From contig JAIEOW010000085.1 in NCBI GenBank assembly GCA_019750095.1, forward strand, positions 1 to 64,000: a stretch of 64,000 nucleotides of DNA, in the 5' to 3' direction. Both the position numbers and the translations under genes were made by a program. The notes beneath the pieces are model-generated. The model ran no database searches and was not told the origin of the DNA. It saw only the letters and a program-made list of their open reading frames with translations. Of the stretch, positions 9,582 to 44,447 are shown in pieces (position 1 is the first letter of the stretch; every line of letters begins with the position of its first letter). The DNA is from Phycisphaerales bacterium. GTDB lineage: Bacteria > Planctomycetota > Phycisphaerae > Phycisphaerales > UBA1924.

Positions 9582-10685
9582 TTAAAGACCCCGATCTCCG
9601 AGTCGTTGAACAATCTCAAGCGCCGCCGCCTCCGGCTCCACCGCCCCGCACACCGCGCTCGACACCGCGACGCCGCGGCAGCCCACACTCGCAAGCGTCC
9701 CGACGTTGTCCGACGTGATCCCGCTGATCGCCAGATGCGGCAGTCTCGCCGTGCGTTCATCCGCCAGATATTGCCGAAGATACTCCGGCCCGCTCAGTGC
9801 CGGTTTGGCCTTGGTTGAACTGGGGAACATCGGTCCGCATCCGCAGTAGTCCGCGCCATCTTCCGCGGCTCTCAGTGCCTGGGTCATGTTCGCGGTAGAG
9901 ACGCCGACGATCAAGCTTCGGCCCGCGATTCGACGGACGTCGGCGATGGAGAGGTCTTCCTGCCCAAGATGCACGCCGTCGGCTTCGCTGAGCAAGGCGA
10001 TGTCGGGGCGATCGTTGATGATGCACATCCCGCCGTGGGATCGGCAGACGTCGACCAGTTGTCGCGCCCGCCGCCGCAGCTCGCGATCCGGCAGCCCCTT
10101 CTCGCGCAGTTGCAGGCAGTCGGCCCCACCTTTGAGCGCCAAAGCCGCGACCTCGGGCCATGGGCGATTGGCACAGAGCGACTCGGTGATGAGCACGCAC
10201 AGCCGCCACTGTCGCACGCGACCGTCGGCCGTGCCAAGGGCCAGCAGCAGCCGACGCTCCTGGTCATACACCCGATAGCGGAGGTCTTTGGCGAGTGACG
10301 CGGGGCTCACTTCAACACGCGGGGCAGTGGGGGAGTCTGCTGGAGGAACTTCGGGCAGGGCCTTGACGCACTCTTCGATGACTCTCAGAGCTTCGCCCGC
10401 CCGTTTTCCCGCCGCGATAGCGACATCGAGCAGGCCCCGACGCTGGGTCTCCGGATCGGTGGTAATCCCTGTTCCGACGTCGTTTGGTGTGTCACGCCAG
10501 GCGGCGAGCGTCAGGGCATCCAGCCGGGCCGCCTCGGCGATGCGTCGAAGCTGGTGGCGGGAGTCTTTGAGCTCGGCCGCCAGGGAGCCGCTGGAGAGCA
10601 CAAACCGCGCGATGTCTTCCATGACCCGCAGCCCCTCGCGGGCACGGTTGAGGTTGGCATCAAGGATTCGGCGGGGGTCGGCCAT
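9582..10685 (-). CDS. thiE: Thiamine-phosphate synthase with extra N-terminal domain
   Basis: A protein of 367 aa. The C-terminal ~200 residues form a ThiE TIM barrel: LCVLITE, GADCLQLREKGLPDREL, CIINDRPDIALLSEADGVHLGQEDL, GVSTANMTQA, DYCGCGPMFPSSTKA, AISGI. This enzyme joins the pyrimidine and thiazole halves to thiamine phosphate. The first ~150 residues (RRILDANLNRAREGLRVMEDIARF...) are a helical domain also found ahead of ThiE in cyanobacteria and planctomycetes (family knowledge); its role is unclear. Start at 10685 (MADPRRIL) was preferred over longer frames that run antisense to zwf. It is divergent from zwf. Confidence 0.88.
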   Translation of the reverse strand: MADPRRILDANLNRAREGLRVMEDIARFVLSSGSLAAELKDSRHQLRRIAEAARLDALTLAAWRDTPNDVGTGITTDPETQRRGLLDVAIAAGKRAGEALRVIEECVKALPEVPPADSPTAPRVEVSPASLAKDLRYRVYDQERRLLLALGTADGRVRQWRLCVLITESLCANRPWPEVAALALKGGADCLQLREKGLPDRELRRRARQLVDVCRSHGGMCIINDRPDIALLSEADGVHLGQEDLSIADVRRIAGRSLIVGVSTANMTQALRAAEDGADYCGCGPMFPSSTKAKPALSGPEYLRQYLADERTARLPHLAISGITSDNVGTLASVGCRGVAVSSAVCGAVEPEAAALEIVQRLGDRGL

Positions 10686-10829
10686 GGGTTTGTGGTGAAG
10701 TATTGGCGTTGTTTGCGATGGCGAAGTCACTATTCTGAGCATCGGCATCCGATACCACGTCAGCGCGATGTAGAAACCGAAACCCGAGCCCCGAAACCCG
10801 CTCCACCCCCAAGCTCCCCTCGCCCCCCC

Positions 10830-12416
10830 ATGAACGGCCAAACCTCCGCCAATCCCGCCGAGCCCTGTGTTGTCGTCATCTTTGGGGCTTCGGGCGACCT
10901 GACGCACCGCAAGCTGATCCCCTCGCTGTACGACCTCTTTCGAGAGCACGTGCTGCCCGAGGGCACGTGTGTTGTCGGGGTGTCGCGGACGCCGATGTCC
11001 GATGACGAGTTCCGGGCCAAGCTCCTGCCCAGCGTGCAGAAGTTCAGCGCTCGGTTTGATCCCGAGACGTGGGCAAAGTTCGCGCAGTTTGTCCACTATC
11101 AGCCCGGCGACGCCGCCCAGATGACCCAGGGCGACCCGATCGCGGCCCGCATCAACGCGCTGGCCAAGCAGCGGAACATCTTGAAGCCCAGCGGCTCGCC
11201 GAACATCTTGTTCTACCTGTCCGTGTCGCCCAACCTGTATGAACCGATCATCGCGGCGATCGGCGGGGCGGGGCTGGTCGCCGAGGGCAAGCGGTGGTGC
11301 TCGATCAATCCGAATGACTCGTCTTGGCAGCGGATCATCGTCGAGAAGCCGTTCGGGTGGGACTTGCCCTCCGCGGCCTCGCTGAACCGAGCCCTGGGCC
11401 GCGTCTTTGAAGAAGAGGCGATCTACCGCATCGATCACTATCTGGGCAAGGAGCTTGTGCAGAACATCGCGGTGCTGCGGTTTGCCAACGCGATCTTTGA
11501 GCCGCTCTGGAATCGCACGCACGTGGATCACGTTCAGGTGACGGCGGCCGAAACAGTGGGCGTGGGCAGCCGAGCGGCGAACTACTACGACTCGGGCGCC
11601 GGCGGCGCGCTGCGTGACATGGTGCAGTCGCACCTTTTGCAGGTGCTGGCGCTGGTCGCGATGGAATGCCCGAGCCGCTTTGAGGCCGACGCGATCATGC
11701 GCGAGAAGATCAAGCTCTTCAACTCCGCTGTTGTGGCCCGCACCGATGAAGCCGCACAGCTCGGCGTCTTCGGACGCTATGACGCCGACGCCAAGACCGG
11801 CGAGCCGGCGTATGTGAAAGAACAGGGCGTCGACGCGGCTCGCAACACCGAGACGTTTGCTGCGATCCAACTGCAGTTTGACAACTGGCGCTGGAACGGC
11901 GTGCCGTTCTATCTGCGATCGGGCAAGAAGATGGCCTCCAAACTCACCGAGGTCGTGGTGACGTTCAAGCGTCCGCCCACGCACGTCTTCCGCGGGCTGG
12001 ATATTGACCCCGGTTCCCGCCCGAACAACCGCATCGTCATCAACATCGCACCGACCGAGGGCATCTCGCTCCGCGTCGATGGCAAGGTTCCCGGCGGGGC
12101 CATCGGCGGCTCCGGCGGATTCAAGATCGCCTCGGCCAAGCTCGACATGGACTATCAGAAGACCTTCGGCGGCGAGTCTGTCGAGGCCTATGCCCCGCTG
12201 ATCTTCGACGCCATCCGTGGCGACCGCACGCTCTACAAGCACCGCGACGAGGTGGAATCCAGCTGGAAGATCTGCCAGCCCTTCCTGGACTCTGAGACCA
12301 TCCGAAAGGGCATACAGACCTATGGCTCCGGCACATGGGGCCCGGCCGGGGCGGATGAACTGCTCGCTCGGACCGGTCGCCGCTGGCACAACCCTGCGGC
12401 GAACGAGGTGCGTTAA
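10830..12416 (+). CDS. zwf: Glucose-6-phosphate 1-dehydrogenase
   Basis: NAD(P)-dependent enzyme of 528 aa, the first step of the oxidative pentose phosphate pathway. The Rossmann motif GASGDLTHRK starts at residue 19, the substrate/catalytic motif RIDHYLGKE lies at 200-208, and later blocks include VQVTAAETVGVGSRA and FYLRSGKKM. Length is close to the family norm (about 490-520). The start at 10830 (MNGQTSANPAEP) places the nucleotide fold near the N terminus. The gene stands alone, divergent from thiE; neither pgl nor gnd is adjacent. Confidence 0.95.
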   Translation: MNGQTSANPAEPCVVVIFGASGDLTHRKLIPSLYDLFREHVLPEGTCVVGVSRTPMSDDEFRAKLLPSVQKFSARFDPETWAKFAQFVHYQPGDAAQMTQGDPIAARINALAKQRNILKPSGSPNILFYLSVSPNLYEPIIAAIGGAGLVAEGKRWCSINPNDSSWQRIIVEKPFGWDLPSAASLNRALGRVFEEEAIYRIDHYLGKELVQNIAVLRFANAIFEPLWNRTHVDHVQVTAAETVGVGSRAANYYDSGAGGALRDMVQSHLLQVLALVAMECPSRFEADAIMREKIKLFNSAVVARTDEAAQLGVFGRYDADAKTGEPAYVKEQGVDAARNTETFAAIQLQFDNWRWNGVPFYLRSGKKMASKLTEVVVTFKRPPTHVFRGLDIDPGSRPNNRIVINIAPTEGISLRVDGKVPGGAIGGSGGFKIASAKLDMDYQKTFGGESVEAYAPLIFDAIRGDRTLYKHRDEVESSWKICQPFLDSETIRKGIQTYGSGTWGPAGADELLARTGRRWHNPAANEVR

Positions 12417-12601: not shown

Positions 12602-14569
12602 ATGGGTGTGCTCGCCTTTCGTCGCTTCTCGCGCCCAGTGGCCTCGTGTCTCGCGCTTGCCGTCGCGGGGTTCTCGGGCGTTGCCGCGGTTCCGGTGGCT
12701 CGGGCCGCCGAGAGTGACAAGGCGCTGAACGCGTCGATCCAGAATCTCGCCACCCAGCGCATCATCTATAACCCCACGACGGGCACGACCTCCAGCGTGG
12801 TGCGTCCCTTCGGCCCGCGCGGCCCGGGCGGGTGCCCGCCGGTGGTGCAATCCGTCACCAACTGCTTTGACTCGATCAACCAGGGTTCCGAGATCACGCT
12901 GCAACTGGGCATGGTTGAGGGCGAGGGTTTCGGGTCCACGTACACGATCGCAGATCCCAATCCCGGCACGCCGCAGAACGAGGCATTTCCGATCGAGGTG
13001 CAACTCGTCGAGTTCTTCGCCGCGACCGCCGGCACGGGCATCGCTGCGAACATCACCATGGGCTGGACCATCGAGGTCTGGGATGGCGAGCCGGGGCAAC
13101 CCAATGCTTCTCTGGTCTTCACCGTCACCAGCGCCGATCCGAACGTCGATCCCGGTTTGCCCCCTGACATCAGCTTGACCCGCGTCACCGGCGGCACCGC
13201 CTGCACGACCAACGAAGACCTGTTGCTCCGCCAGCTTCTGGGCCAGCAGATCCAGGCCTCCGCCGTCAAGGTCCAGTTTTCCGTCGATTCGACCGCCGAC
13301 CCGGTCGATCGCATGGTCGTCAACGGCACGAGCGGCACGGGGCTCGTCTCGATCGTCGTGAAGATCGATCGACACAACCAGCCGGGCGCATCGCCCTGCA
13401 CCACGGTGAGTTTCTGCAACAACGCGTTCCTCTGCACCGAGGGCGCGACGATCACGCCCTGCTCCACCGGCACAACCAACCCCGCCGCGCCCACCTTTGC
13501 CTCGCGTAACTGGTTGTCGGCGATCTCTTGCGCCGGCGGATGCCCCGCGGGATACACACGTTTCAGCAACCTCGCCACAGGCCTTGGCGGATGCCGACCC
13601 AGCCGCGACGTTGTTCAGCAGATCACCACCGTCGCCAGCGCGTGTGTCGGCGTGATTCAGGGCGCGTGCTGCAACGGCTCCACCGGCGGCTGCACATTGC
13701 AAACAACCGCCAACTGCTCTTCCGTCGGCGGAACCTACCAGGGCGACAACACCGTCTGCTCCCCCAACCCCTGCCCCCAGCCCACCGGCGCGTGCTGCAA
13801 CAACACCACCGGCGCGTGCACCGCAACCACCAGCACCACCTGCGCCGGCGGTACCTTCCAGGGCGTCGGCACCTCCTGCTCGCCCACCCCATGCCCGGAG
13901 CCCAACGGCGCCTGCTGCACGAATACCGGCGCGTGCGCGTCGGTCACCCAGACGCAGTGCTCGCAGCTCGGCGGCTCGTTCATCGCCGGCGTCGCGTGCA
14001 CCGTGAACAACACCTGCCCGCTCGGCGCGTGCTGCTTGCCCGATGGCTCATGCGTCGCCGGGCTCTCTTCGCCCGCTTGCTCCTCGCAGGGCGGCACGTT
14101 CCAGGGTGTCAGCTCCGCCTGCGCCTCGGTCAGTTGCCCGCAGCCCGCGGGCGCGTGCTGCACCACCACCGGCGGCTGCACTTCCGTCACCCAGGCCGTC
14201 TGCTCGATCTTCGGTGGCACCTGGGCCGGCGCGTTCACCACCTGCCCCGGCGCCTGCACGCCACCGGCAGGTCTCTGCTGCCGCGGCACGACGTGCGCGG
14301 CGGGCGTCGCCCAGAACAACTGCACGCCGATCAGCAATGTTGGCGTCGCCTTTGCCTCCGGGTCTTCCTGCGGAACCAGCCCCACCGCGCCCTGCTGCTT
14401 TGCGGACTATGACAAGATGGGCGGAATCGCCGTCGGCGACATCTTCGCCTATCTCAACAGTTGGTTCGCGAGCAGCCCTTACACGAAGTTTGCGGGCGAT
14501 GGAGTGGCCCCGCCCGCAGTTGGGGATATCTTCTCCTTCCTGAACGCGTGGTTCGCGGGCGGCTGCTGA
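12602..14569 (+). CDS. Secreted Cys-rich repeat protein with GC-type dockerin-like tail
   Basis: Exported protein of 655 aa, function unknown. A signal peptide is seen at about 1-37 (SCLALAVAGFSGVAAVPVARAAES). Residues ~40-340 form an unrecognised domain. From about residue 354 there are five to six modules of ~40 aa, each opening with GACC and containing further Cys pairs, a GG-[TS]-[FY] block and a CPxP ending. The tail has two copies of a helix motif (VGDIFAYLNSWFA and VGDIFSFLNAWFA) and ends in GGC, matching the GC-type dockerin-like tail of Phycisphaerales. A shorter paralogue follows directly. The tail is probably used for surface attachment or assembly, but this is inferred. Confidence 0.8.
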   Translation: MGVLAFRRFSRPVASCLALAVAGFSGVAAVPVARAAESDKALNASIQNLATQRIIYNPTTGTTSSVVRPFGPRGPGGCPPVVQSVTNCFDSINQGSEITLQLGMVEGEGFGSTYTIADPNPGTPQNEAFPIEVQLVEFFAATAGTGIAANITMGWTIEVWDGEPGQPNASLVFTVTSADPNVDPGLPPDISLTRVTGGTACTTNEDLLLRQLLGQQIQASAVKVQFSVDSTADPVDRMVVNGTSGTGLVSIVVKIDRHNQPGASPCTTVSFCNNAFLCTEGATITPCSTGTTNPAAPTFASRNWLSAISCAGGCPAGYTRFSNLATGLGGCRPSRDVVQQITTVASACVGVIQGACCNGSTGGCTLQTTANCSSVGGTYQGDNTVCSPNPCPQPTGACCNNTTGACTATTSTTCAGGTFQGVGTSCSPTPCPEPNGACCTNTGACASVTQTQCSQLGGSFIAGVACTVNNTCPLGACCLPDGSCVAGLSSPACSSQGGTFQGVSSACASVSCPQPAGACCTTTGGCTSVTQAVCSIFGGTWAGAFTTCPGACTPPAGLCCRGTTCAAGVAQNNCTPISNVGVAFASGSSCGTSPTAPCCFADYDKMGGIAVGDIFAYLNSWFASSPYTKFAGDGVAPPAVGDIFSFLNAWFAGGC

Positions 14570-14662
14570 TTCGCGTCTGTTGCGCAGTTCGTGGGGTCTC
14601 GTGGGCCTCACGATCGCGCTCGGACCGCATCGACATCACCCGCGGAGTAAAGGCCTGCCCTG

Positions 14663-15643
14663 ATGCAGTCCGTGGTGCGACATGCAGTTGTTCTCGGACT
14701 CGTCGCGCTCGCCGCGTCGTTTGCCCGGGCTCAGACCGGCGCGTGCTGCGGCGTCGCCGGTTCGTGTTCCATCACGCCTCAGATCATGTGTGTCGGCGCG
14801 TTCCTTGGCGATGGCTCGGTCTGCGCCCCCGGTGCGTGCGACGCCGTCACCGGTGCGTGCTGCGTACCAAGTGGTGCTTGCACGATCTCGACCCAGACGC
14901 TCTGCAAATCGTCTGGCGGCGCGTATGAGGGCGACGGCATCTCGTGCGCCGACGTCTCATGCCCCCAGCCCACCGGCGCGTGCTGCAACGCCGCGGGACA
15001 CCAGTGCACCAACGTCATCGAGAACGATTGCCTGCAACTCGGCGGCACGTTCTACCGCGGCGCGGCGTGCACGCCGAACGGTCTTTGCCCCATCGGCGCG
15101 TGCTGTCTGCCAGAGGGCGTCTGCACCGCAGGCATCAGCCAACCCTCATGTGCCAAGTGGCGCGGCACTTTCCAGGGCATCGGCACCACCTGCACTGGAA
15201 TCATGTGCCCCATGCCCGTTGGCGCGTGCTGCACATCCACGGGCGGGTGCGCACTGCTCACCGCAAACATCTGTGCGATCTTCGGACAATGGCGCGGTCC
15301 GGGCACCACTTGCCCCATCGCTTGCCTGCCCCCGGGCGTCTGCTGCCGTGGCTCAACATGCGCAACCGGCGTCATCGCGACCGCCTGCAGCGCGCAGGGA
15401 TCGATCGGCGCGATCTTCATTTCGGGCCAGGCCGTGTGCAATCCCAGCGGCGGACGTGTGCCCTCATGCTGCCTGACCGACGTCAACAAGTCCGGCGCGG
15501 TCGATATCCAGGATGTCTTCGACTATCTGAACGCCTGGTTCGCCCAGAGTCCATACGCCGACTTTGGCGGTAGTGGCTCCGGCACGCCGGTGATCCAGGA
15601 CATCTTTGACTTTCTGAACGCGTGGTTCGTGGGTGAGTGCTGA
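14663..15643 (+). CDS. Secreted Cys-rich repeat protein, tandem paralogue
   Basis: Exported protein of 326 aa. The signal peptide (about 1-23, ending SFARAQ) runs straight into GACC modules (TGACCGVAGSC, TGACCVPSGAC, TGACCNAAGHQC, IGACCLPEGVC, VGACCTSTGGC), about 38-40 aa each, then the CCRG-type last module shared with the upstream gene. The tail repeats IQDVFDYLNAWFA and IQDIFDFLNAWFV and ends in GEC rather than GC. It lacks the large N-terminal domain of its neighbour, so it may have arisen by duplication and loss. The even Cys spacing suggests disulfide-stapled beta modules. Function unknown. Confidence 0.8.
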   Translation: MQSVVRHAVVLGLVALAASFARAQTGACCGVAGSCSITPQIMCVGAFLGDGSVCAPGACDAVTGACCVPSGACTISTQTLCKSSGGAYEGDGISCADVSCPQPTGACCNAAGHQCTNVIENDCLQLGGTFYRGAACTPNGLCPIGACCLPEGVCTAGISQPSCAKWRGTFQGIGTTCTGIMCPMPVGACCTSTGGCALLTANICAIFGQWRGPGTTCPIACLPPGVCCRGSTCATGVIATACSAQGSIGAIFISGQAVCNPSGGRVPSCCLTDVNKSGAVDIQDVFDYLNAWFAQSPYADFGGSGSGTPVIQDIFDFLNAWFVGEC

Positions 15644-43427: not shown

Positions 43428-44447
43428 TCACGGACAGCCAACAAACCAGTCGTTCAGGAAGTCAAAGATGTCCTGAACCTCATGGACCCCGTTGCAGTTG
43501 TAGTCGGCGGTGCGCGGGCAGAAGCTGAGGTTGCAGTCGTTGAACCAGGCGTTGAGGAAGTCGAACAGGTCGATCACATTCACGCCGTCGACGCCGTTGT
43601 AGTTCGGCGGGCAGAGATTGATCGTGTTTCCCAGAAACCCGTTGGTCCACATCATGCTACTCGAGGTGAAAGCGGCGGGAATCGGTACGGGTTGCCAACC
43701 GCCTGCCGTCTTCTGCACCTGAGTAAAAACCGTCGGAGGTTCGCTCACGTGGGCGGTCAGCGTGAGATTCTGAAGAACCGAGGGGTTCGCGAGCGTGTAC
43801 CGGAATCGGTAGAGCTGTACGAAGTTGTTGTTGGAGCCAAAGCTCTGATCGGAAATCGTGGAGTCCAGCGCGACGATCGTTCCGTCGGGAACCACTTGGC
43901 CCGAGCCGTTGAGCGGCGACGAATCGGGAATGCCGTCAAGGTCTTTGTCCAGCGTGTTCAAGAGAAATGTGCCACCGGTCAAGCCGCGCACGCCTGACAA
44001 CTCACCCGCGCAAAGCGTGTTGGTGAAACCGGTTGCCGAGACCGGCGGATTGCTCAAGCCGTTGTTGGACACACTTTGAGCCACGAGTGAACGGCACGGA
44101 TACGCCACGCCGGCCATTCCGCCGCCGGTCGTGCTGGTCGTCGGGGCTCCTGTGAAGTAGGACTGGTCTGCGTTGTTGATCCGCAGGCGAGCGAACGTGC
44201 CGGCATTCTCGCCCGCCCACGAGAAAAACCTCAAACCGAATGAGGCGATTCCGATGGGGCCAGTTGCCCCGACGACGCGGGCCTCAATCACGAAGTCGAG
44301 AGTCACATCCGATGAGCTAGCGAAAGAGGATTGTCCCGTCATCTCCCGCAACCGGAACTCAACGGTTTGGCCAGCGGCCATACTTCCGGCCAAAACGCCC
44401 GCGCTCGCCGCGAGAGCCGACAGCTTTAACCCGTTGCGCATCGCCAA
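43428..44447 (-). CDS. Secreted protein with GC-type dockerin-like tail
   Basis: A 339-aa exported protein. Signal peptide about 1-26 (LSALAASAGVLAGSMAAGQ). The middle is a beta-rich domain of unknown role (VTLDFVIEARVVG, FGLRFFSWAGENAGTFARL, split). The tail has two dockerin-like motifs (NVIDLFDFLNAWF and EVQDIFDFLNDWF), each preceded by an Asn/Asp/Gly loop (NYNGVDG, DYNCNGV), and ends VGCP. It shares the tail, but not the GACC repeats, with the two proteins at 12602-15643. The first or third codon (both ATG) may be the start. Confidence 0.8.
   Translation of the reverse strand: MAMRNGLKLSALAASAGVLAGSMAAGQTVEFRLREMTGQSSFASSSDVTLDFVIEARVVGATGPIGIASFGLRFFSWAGENAGTFARLRINNADQSYFTGAPTTSTTGGGMAGVAYPCRSLVAQSVSNNGLSNPPVSATGFTNTLCAGELSGVRGLTGGTFLLNTLDKDLDGIPDSSPLNGSGQVVPDGTIVALDSTISDQSFGSNNNFVQLYRFRYTLANPSVLQNLTLTAHVSEPPTVFTQVQKTAGGWQPVPIPAAFTSSSMMWTNGFLGNTINLCPPNYNGVDGVNVIDLFDFLNAWFNDCNLSFCPRTADYNCNGVHEVQDIFDFLNDWFVGCP

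Follow-up and report, generated by a model that had tools for sequence, protein, structure and literature searches.

We describe two neighbouring genes, which we call P1 and P2, in a 64,000-nucleotide stretch of a Phycisphaerales bacterium genome (GCA_019750095.1, contig JAIEOW010000085.1, positions 1 to 64,000; hereafter the window). Our reading, which we hold to be probable, is that both genes encode exported rigid spacers built from a cysteine-rich repeat, the GACC module, and that a clasped dockerin tail docks these spacers to some partner outside the Pfam cohesin family. By computation we established the anatomy of modules and tail, the co-variation of the tail cysteines, the known family to which the tail belongs, and a match between the module model and iRhoms. 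The tail itself is already catalogued as a known family on exported proteins and is the ordinary part of the finding. What is new is our reading of the tail, as a dockerin clasped by a disulfide and joined to the last module, together with a repeat whose sole solved look-alike that we found is the iRhom extracellular domain.

P1 is an open reading frame (ORF) of 655 amino acids and P2 one of 326, and the two lie in tandem. An initial annotation, made from the sequence without database searches, had described two neighbouring cysteine-rich GACC-repeat proteins with modules of about 40 residues, and this held: both ORFs are open and each has five such modules of 38–42 residues. Beyond what was described there, each module has six cysteines, a differing sixth module (G[LV]CCRG) is fused to the tail of each protein, and P1 carries another domain of about 320 amino acids between the signal peptide and its first module. 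P2 runs directly from its signal peptide into the five modules, the variant module and the tail, and is almost entirely module (38 cysteines in 326 amino acids). The features are as follows.

12602–14569 (+): P1, putatively exported, with five GACC modules, a variant module and a dockerin tail with a GGC end (ORF and translation)
12602–12706 (+): P1 signal peptide, with probable cleavage after ARA (sequence; home-made heuristic, not SignalP)
12707–13660 (+): P1 N-terminal domain, without a Pfam match (conserved in L161, visible in L166–L168)
13661–13786 (+): P1 GACC module 1 (sequence, module profile)
13787–13906 (+): P1 GACC module 2 (sequence, module profile)
13907–14023 (+): P1 GACC module 3 (sequence, module profile)
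14024–14149 (+): P1 GACC module 4 (sequence, module profile)
14150–14269 (+): P1 GACC module 5 (sequence, module profile)
14270–14395 (+): P1 variant module 6 (GLCCRG), its sixth cysteine probably the first of the tail CC (sequence)
14396–14566 (+): P1 dockerin_GC tail, with putative clasp cysteines at 14396–14398 and 14564–14566 (NF041540, 17.4 bits, below the 29-bit cut-off)
14663–15643 (+): P2, with signal peptide, five GACC modules, a variant module and a tail with a GEC end (ORF and translation)
14663–14731 (+): P2 signal peptide, with probable cleavage at ARA/QT (sequence)
14738–14851 (+): P2 GACC module 1 (sequence, module profile)
14852–14974 (+): P2 GACC module 2, modelled alone (predicted local distance difference test, pLDDT, 88.5; Foldseek match to iRhom1/2)
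14975–15094 (+): P2 GACC module 3 (sequence, module profile)
15095–15220 (+): P2 GACC module 4 (sequence, module profile)
15221–15334 (+): P2 GACC module 5 (sequence, module profile)
15335–15469 (+): P2 variant module 6 (GVCCRG), probably ending on the first cysteine of CC (sequence)
15470–15640 (+): P2 dockerin_GC tail, with putative clasp cysteines at 15470–15472 and 15638–15640 (NF041540, 35.8 bits, cut-off 29)

The two proteins are 51% identical across array and tail and their modules align one-to-one in register, so the duplication covered a whole array. Both genes also lie side by side in UBA4658, another Phycisphaerales bacterium (L166), where the copy of P2 is 65% identical. In a Pfam scan neither P1 nor P2 matched any family at E<=1. 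The duplicated DIFxFLNxWF motif with a GGC or GEC end that had been reported for the tails is there as described, with small deviations: the P1 tail reads DIFAYLNSWF...DIFSFLNAWFAGGC with GGC at the stop, and the P2 tail DVFDYLNAWF...DIFDFLNAWFVGEC with GEC at the stop.

The six cysteines follow CC-x4-6-C-x7-C-x9-13-C-x4-C in most of 131 modules that we counted, and all six are invariant across 46 aligned modules. Scans of P1 and P2 against Pfam and NCBIfam found no family for the module. Our counts refer to the genome of the window (G000, 4.19 Mb, 202 contigs, the window belonging to contig C198). The repeats and tails go well beyond chance there: the module profile has at least 141 matches at E<=0.001 (150 of 324 candidates scored) and the tail at least 146 at E<=0.01 (150 of 174 candidates scored, with three further tail ORFs read outside the 146). 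The module matches fall in 39 ORFs, of which 37 have a recognisable clasped tail and two have a divergent dockerin-like end. In this genome GACC modules are frequently found between other domains, as expected of spacers. In a sample of 294 genomes of the phylum we found modules in 13, seven of them outside the class, and the module array matched nothing among plasmids or phages. Some of the module genes are clustered, with five in a row on one strand at C181:18625-30311 and pairs or triplets on C191, C189, C192, C183, C81 and C160.

We modelled a single module (P2 module 2, 41 residues) with template-free AlphaFold2 and obtained a compact beta-beta-alpha-beta fold at a pLDDT of 88.5; in a model of the whole of P2 the five modules had block means of 67–83. 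With a confident compact model and no catalogued family, the view of the initial annotation that the GACC module is a distinct disulfide-type repeat is supported. Foldseek with the single module against the PDB returned two matches only, iRhom1 (9xy4_A) and iRhom2 (8snl_B), with E of 0.56 and 0.64, probability of 0.97 and 0.95, template modelling score by query of 0.76 and 0.75, and root-mean-square deviation of 1.7 A over 37 columns. VIA-align aligned 41 residues to iRhom1 597–640 and iRhom2 569–612 with Z of 4.6, 4.1 and 4.0 (the last value belongs to iRhom2 under a different numbering), and that both programs returned only iRhoms for the module leaves room for other folds. For the whole P2 model iRhoms were four of the six Foldseek matches and all four VIA-align rows, the other Foldseek matches being the unrelated chains 5jhw_D (E 1.5) and 2vkx_B (E 7.3). 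Module sequence profiles against PDB chains also gave the iRhoms as sole matches (E 0.0021 and 0.015), and sequence and structure searches select one common stretch. When this stretch was shuffled with its cysteines fixed, 0–3 of 10000 shuffles reached the real score, so residues other than cysteine contribute to the match. We did not establish a second, partial copy of the module in iRhom, as 188–2841 of 10000 such shuffles reached its score.

According to a passage in PMC11248996, nothing in the PDB or among predicted human proteins resembles the iRhom extracellular domain in structure, and passages in the same paper and in PMC12184519 and PMC13277793 describe its stabilisation by eight disulfides. 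PMC3149277 states in the relevant passage that iRhoms occur in metazoans only. By title and abstract, the literature that names iRhom and "planctomycet" together concerns microcompartments and a metformin hydrolase.

The tail belongs to NCBIfam NF041540 (dockerin_GC, GC-type dockerin domain-anchored protein), with 35.8 bits for P2 against a curated cut-off of 29. A full-text search in our literature library did not find the term "GC-type dockerin". The family is present in 16 of the 294 sampled genomes, all of the same class, which makes 16 of the 28 genomes of that class. With a script, 139 of the 146 tails parsed as two units of a calcium loop and helix and seven as one unit; by direct reading, six tails have a single loop-helix unit flanked by cysteines, and tandem tails with two cysteine-flanked units also occur. 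As the initial annotation proposed, the tails are dockerin-like: the tail profile had three matches in the PDB, all of them dockerins (2ccl, 1ohz, 5n5p; E 0.097–0.21). With the PF00404 profile, 4 of 29 tails (alignment A9) match at E<=0.1, the best at 8.7e-6.

Tails on clearly cytoplasmic proteins, which would have counted against the initial annotation, did not turn up: the proteins that carry tails are varied and of exported types. A signal-peptide score of at least 3 was reached by 103 of 138 tail ORFs and by 10 of 31 other long ORFs in the window (the score is a home-made heuristic, and 8 of the 146 tail ORFs that are open at the 5' end were dropped). The passengers, many of them enzymes and binding domains, include subtilase, reprolysin, M14 and M10 peptidases, FG-GAP, Ig, LTD, P-domain and T9SS-associated galactose-binding-like domains. 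This Pfam scan covered 136 ORFs, after 8 of the 146 with inner stops or too little passenger were dropped, along with two very long ORFs (L100:980-9409 and L137:238-7434).

We also noticed some unusual tails. A third tail ORF in the window (43428–44447, minus strand, 339 amino acids) has two cysteine-flanked units in tandem and only 13.9 bits to NF041540. One ORF (L180:2361-4154) has two complete clasped tails, internal and terminal, with a GACC-like module between them. In L224-L229, from the G284 genus, the tails have much longer loops (ANTDGDPTPDGVIDNGDF) and keep the cysteine pair.

A terminal cysteine is present in 142 of the 146 tails, and a first cysteine stands just before the first loop. 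In this genome both are present in 137 tails, only the first in 1, only the last in 2 and neither in 3, with 3 undecidable short tails (Fisher p = 8e-5, related sequences being counted as independent; C122:5477 and C189:61252 were reclassified by hand). We fetched 40 tails from eight relatives and dropped one without a stop, in which both cysteines are absent; the remaining 39 have both in 31, only the first in 2, only the last in 0 and neither in 6 (p = 9e-6, one row, L216, reclassified by hand). A second cysteine pair, CxC and FLNC in the last helix, is complete in 7 of the 139 two-unit tails and never has one partner alone (p = 6e-12); two divergent tails outside the 139 look by eye like the same type. 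Because the terminal cysteine co-varies with the one at the start and the second pair co-varies perfectly, the simple reading is that the terminal cysteine closes the tail on itself, which would make it a dockerin with an internal disulfide clasp. The GGC or GEC end appears to supply one half of an internal clasp and not a signal for anchoring. A passage in PMC5934362 describes an end-to-end intramolecular clasp by Trp-Pro stacking in the cellulosomal dockerin RfDocScaA. We rejected the idea that an extra first-loop cysteine rescues tails without the last one: by eye that cysteine is present in all three of them, but also in about 11 of the 139 two-unit tails.

A relative of P1 from another family of the order (L161, in G229) matches P1 in its N-terminal domain and modules (E 6e-40) and ends in a dockerin-like tail without cysteines (28 bits to NF041540), and we therefore regard the tails as exchangeable and the cysteine pair as optional.

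Tails of module proteins start with CC and other tails with a single C. Of the 34 tails with a CC start, 30 have a last module next to them, while 1 of 103 single-C tails has an adjacent module (p = 9e-25; 9 of the 146 rows that the script did not place are left out). Two of the four CC exceptions do carry a module, visible by eye, that the pattern missed, and the sole single-C module protein has a complete six-cysteine module upstream of its tail. The variant sixth module of P1 and P2 has only five cysteines of its own. From these patterns we infer that the last module gets its sixth cysteine from the first of CC, and that the clasp is closed by the second. With CC shared in this way, all 38 cysteines of P2 could pair, with 15 bonds in the five modules, 3 in the sixth and 1 in the tail.

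Taken together, the proteins may work as follows, with disulfides, calcium, docking and spacing in P1 and P2 being what we infer. Their signal peptides suggest Sec export. Each GACC module would fold alone into the predicted beta-beta-alpha-beta fold with three disulfides, a pairing suggested by the six conserved cysteines, and the modules would stack into a stiff, protease-resistant spacer. As the last module and the tail would share CC, rod and tail would form one rigid unit. The tail would be a dockerin with two EF loops and a disulfide between its two ends, the covalent counterpart of the cellulosomal dockerin clasp. Probably with the help of calcium, it would dock the protein to a partner on the surface or outside the cell, other than a Pfam cohesin. 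P1 would hold its N-terminal domain away from the dock, and P2, which has no other domain, might serve there as spacer or filler.

The shared tails had been taken to suggest a common anchoring or assembly partner, and here the searches did not bear the idea out, as four tail-rich relatives have no Pfam cohesin and none of five genomes searched has a sortase. Perhaps the tail pairs with a cohesin-like sandwich too divergent for Pfam PF00963 to detect, in a true cohesin-dockerin system, which we consider unlikely. A passage in PMC6461901 does propose, for freshwater planctomycetes, a "planctosome" of cohesins and dockerins that includes peptidases, LTD and P-domains. The only Pfam cohesin match in our genome (PF00963, 29.8 bits, cut-off 24.1, C162:1-2200, L148) adjoins two tail genes, but its ORF is cut by the contig end. 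PF00963 matches occur in 5 of the 28 class genomes. The passenger of the C162 neighbour is also sandwich-like in appearance. A Pfam cohesin seems an unlikely partner: the match in this genome is fragmentary, the four tail-rich relatives have none, and the candidate cohesin ORFs that we read contained no scaffold. It is very improbable, in our view, that the terminal GC is a sorting or anchoring signal with its last cysteine attached to lipid, wall or another protein. The cysteine is last or next-to-last in 137 of the 142 tails that end with one, the NCBIfam label says "dockerin domain-anchored", and we found an exosortase in all five genomes; however, the terminal cysteine co-varies with an internal one, natural tails without either cysteine exist, sortases are absent from those five genomes, and neither a hydrophobic stretch nor a basic end comes after the tail. 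An exosortase sorting signal requires a hydrophobic end, so we also rejected the tail as such a signal.

P1 and P2 could instead be cystine-rich wall or matrix proteins, cross-linked envelope material like YTV proteins that the tail only delivers, and we give this a rather low probability. P2 with its 38 cysteines is nearly all module, and PMC8567305 describes, in a passage on planctomycete walls, a proteinaceous wall with cysteine-rich YTV proteins. Yet the number of cysteines in array and tail is even and fits internal pairing (38 cysteines, 19 bonds), most modules sit among other domains of large exoproteins, and the tail carriers include the many enzymes and binding domains listed above. 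As for the iRhom match, the module and the iRhom stretch likely share a fold; we say only likely because of the weak E-values and Z and the small size of the domain. Those weak scores over 41 residues, and the poor second copy in iRhom, would also suit a coincidence of small cysteine-rich folds with neither shared fold nor ancestry. We find this doubtful, as iRhoms alone came from two sequence profiles and from the single-module Foldseek search (2 of 2) and dominate the matches of the whole P2 model, sequence and structure agree on the stretch, and shuffles with fixed cysteines hardly ever reach the real score. A little less doubtful, and still only tentative, is that bacteria hold in the GACC module a counterpart, and perhaps even the source, of the iRhom homology domain (IRHD) module, so that a metazoan regulatory domain reported to lack structural relatives would have been built from a bacterial exported spacer.

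Several observations weigh against P1 and P2 being spacers docked by a clasped tail. The P1 tail has only 17.4 bits to NF041540, and its close similarity to P2 is the only basis for placing it there. In the P2 model the tail part is poor (block means 38–65), and dockerin fold and clasp are not visible in it. The clasp counts treat related sequences as independent, which inflates the Fisher p-values by kinship; the first cysteine occurs without the last in three tails (one here, two in relatives), and the last without the first in two tails of this genome. A 692-amino-acid ORF of G003 (L160), a planctomycete outside the class, consists of 15 GACC modules and little else and has no dockerin; from this and the other modules outside the class we conclude that modules and tails are separate cassettes. 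Our searches for Pfam cohesin in the four tail-rich relatives and for sortase in the five genomes found no docking partner; PF00963 was not found at E<=0.01 in G002, G032, G087 and G159, each of which has at least 19 scored tails. The modules could also bind ligands instead of spacing domains.

Upstream of P1, the ORF at 10554–12416 (+) resembles glucose-6-phosphate dehydrogenase by its motifs.

With these results an uncatalogued planctomycete repeat gains a predicted fold, and the iRhom extracellular domain, reported as unprecedented, gains candidate relatives outside animals. The terminal cysteine of more than 100 GC-tail proteins in one genome would be recast as a structural clasp. The clasp reading also makes binding by the tail directly testable, and the search for its partner should not stop at Pfam cohesins or sortases.

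The tails resemble NF041540 in their length, two D-x-[DN] loops, DIFxFLN helices and terminal GC, and P2 lies above its cut-off. The module-associated tails differ as a subtype with a CC start, a longer second loop and a GGC end, and many of them score near or below the cut-off. With the cellulosomal type I dockerin (PF00404) the tails share the duplicated calcium-loop layout, and the PDB matches are 2ccl, 1ohz and 5n5p; in contrast, the clasp here would be a disulfide, most tails miss PF00404, and the four tail-rich relatives have no cohesin. Compared with the planctosome, the passengers are alike in kind and the cohesin is the missing piece. The YTV wall proteins of Planctomycetales (PMC8567305, same passage) are likewise exported, cysteine-rich and planctomycete, but belong to another class of the phylum, and the modules here bear dockerin tails; this comparison was by Pfam scan only. 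In iRhoms, which are ADAM17-binding membrane pseudoproteases, a 240-amino-acid domain holds one full copy of the module, whereas the bacterial modules are tandem and exported, with no rhomboid part seen and no Pfam match in P1 or P2. What the modules and the IRHD stretches of iRhom1 (about 597–640) and iRhom2 (569–612) have in common is the cysteine spacing, the predicted fold, and a probable extracellular, disulfide-stapled nature.

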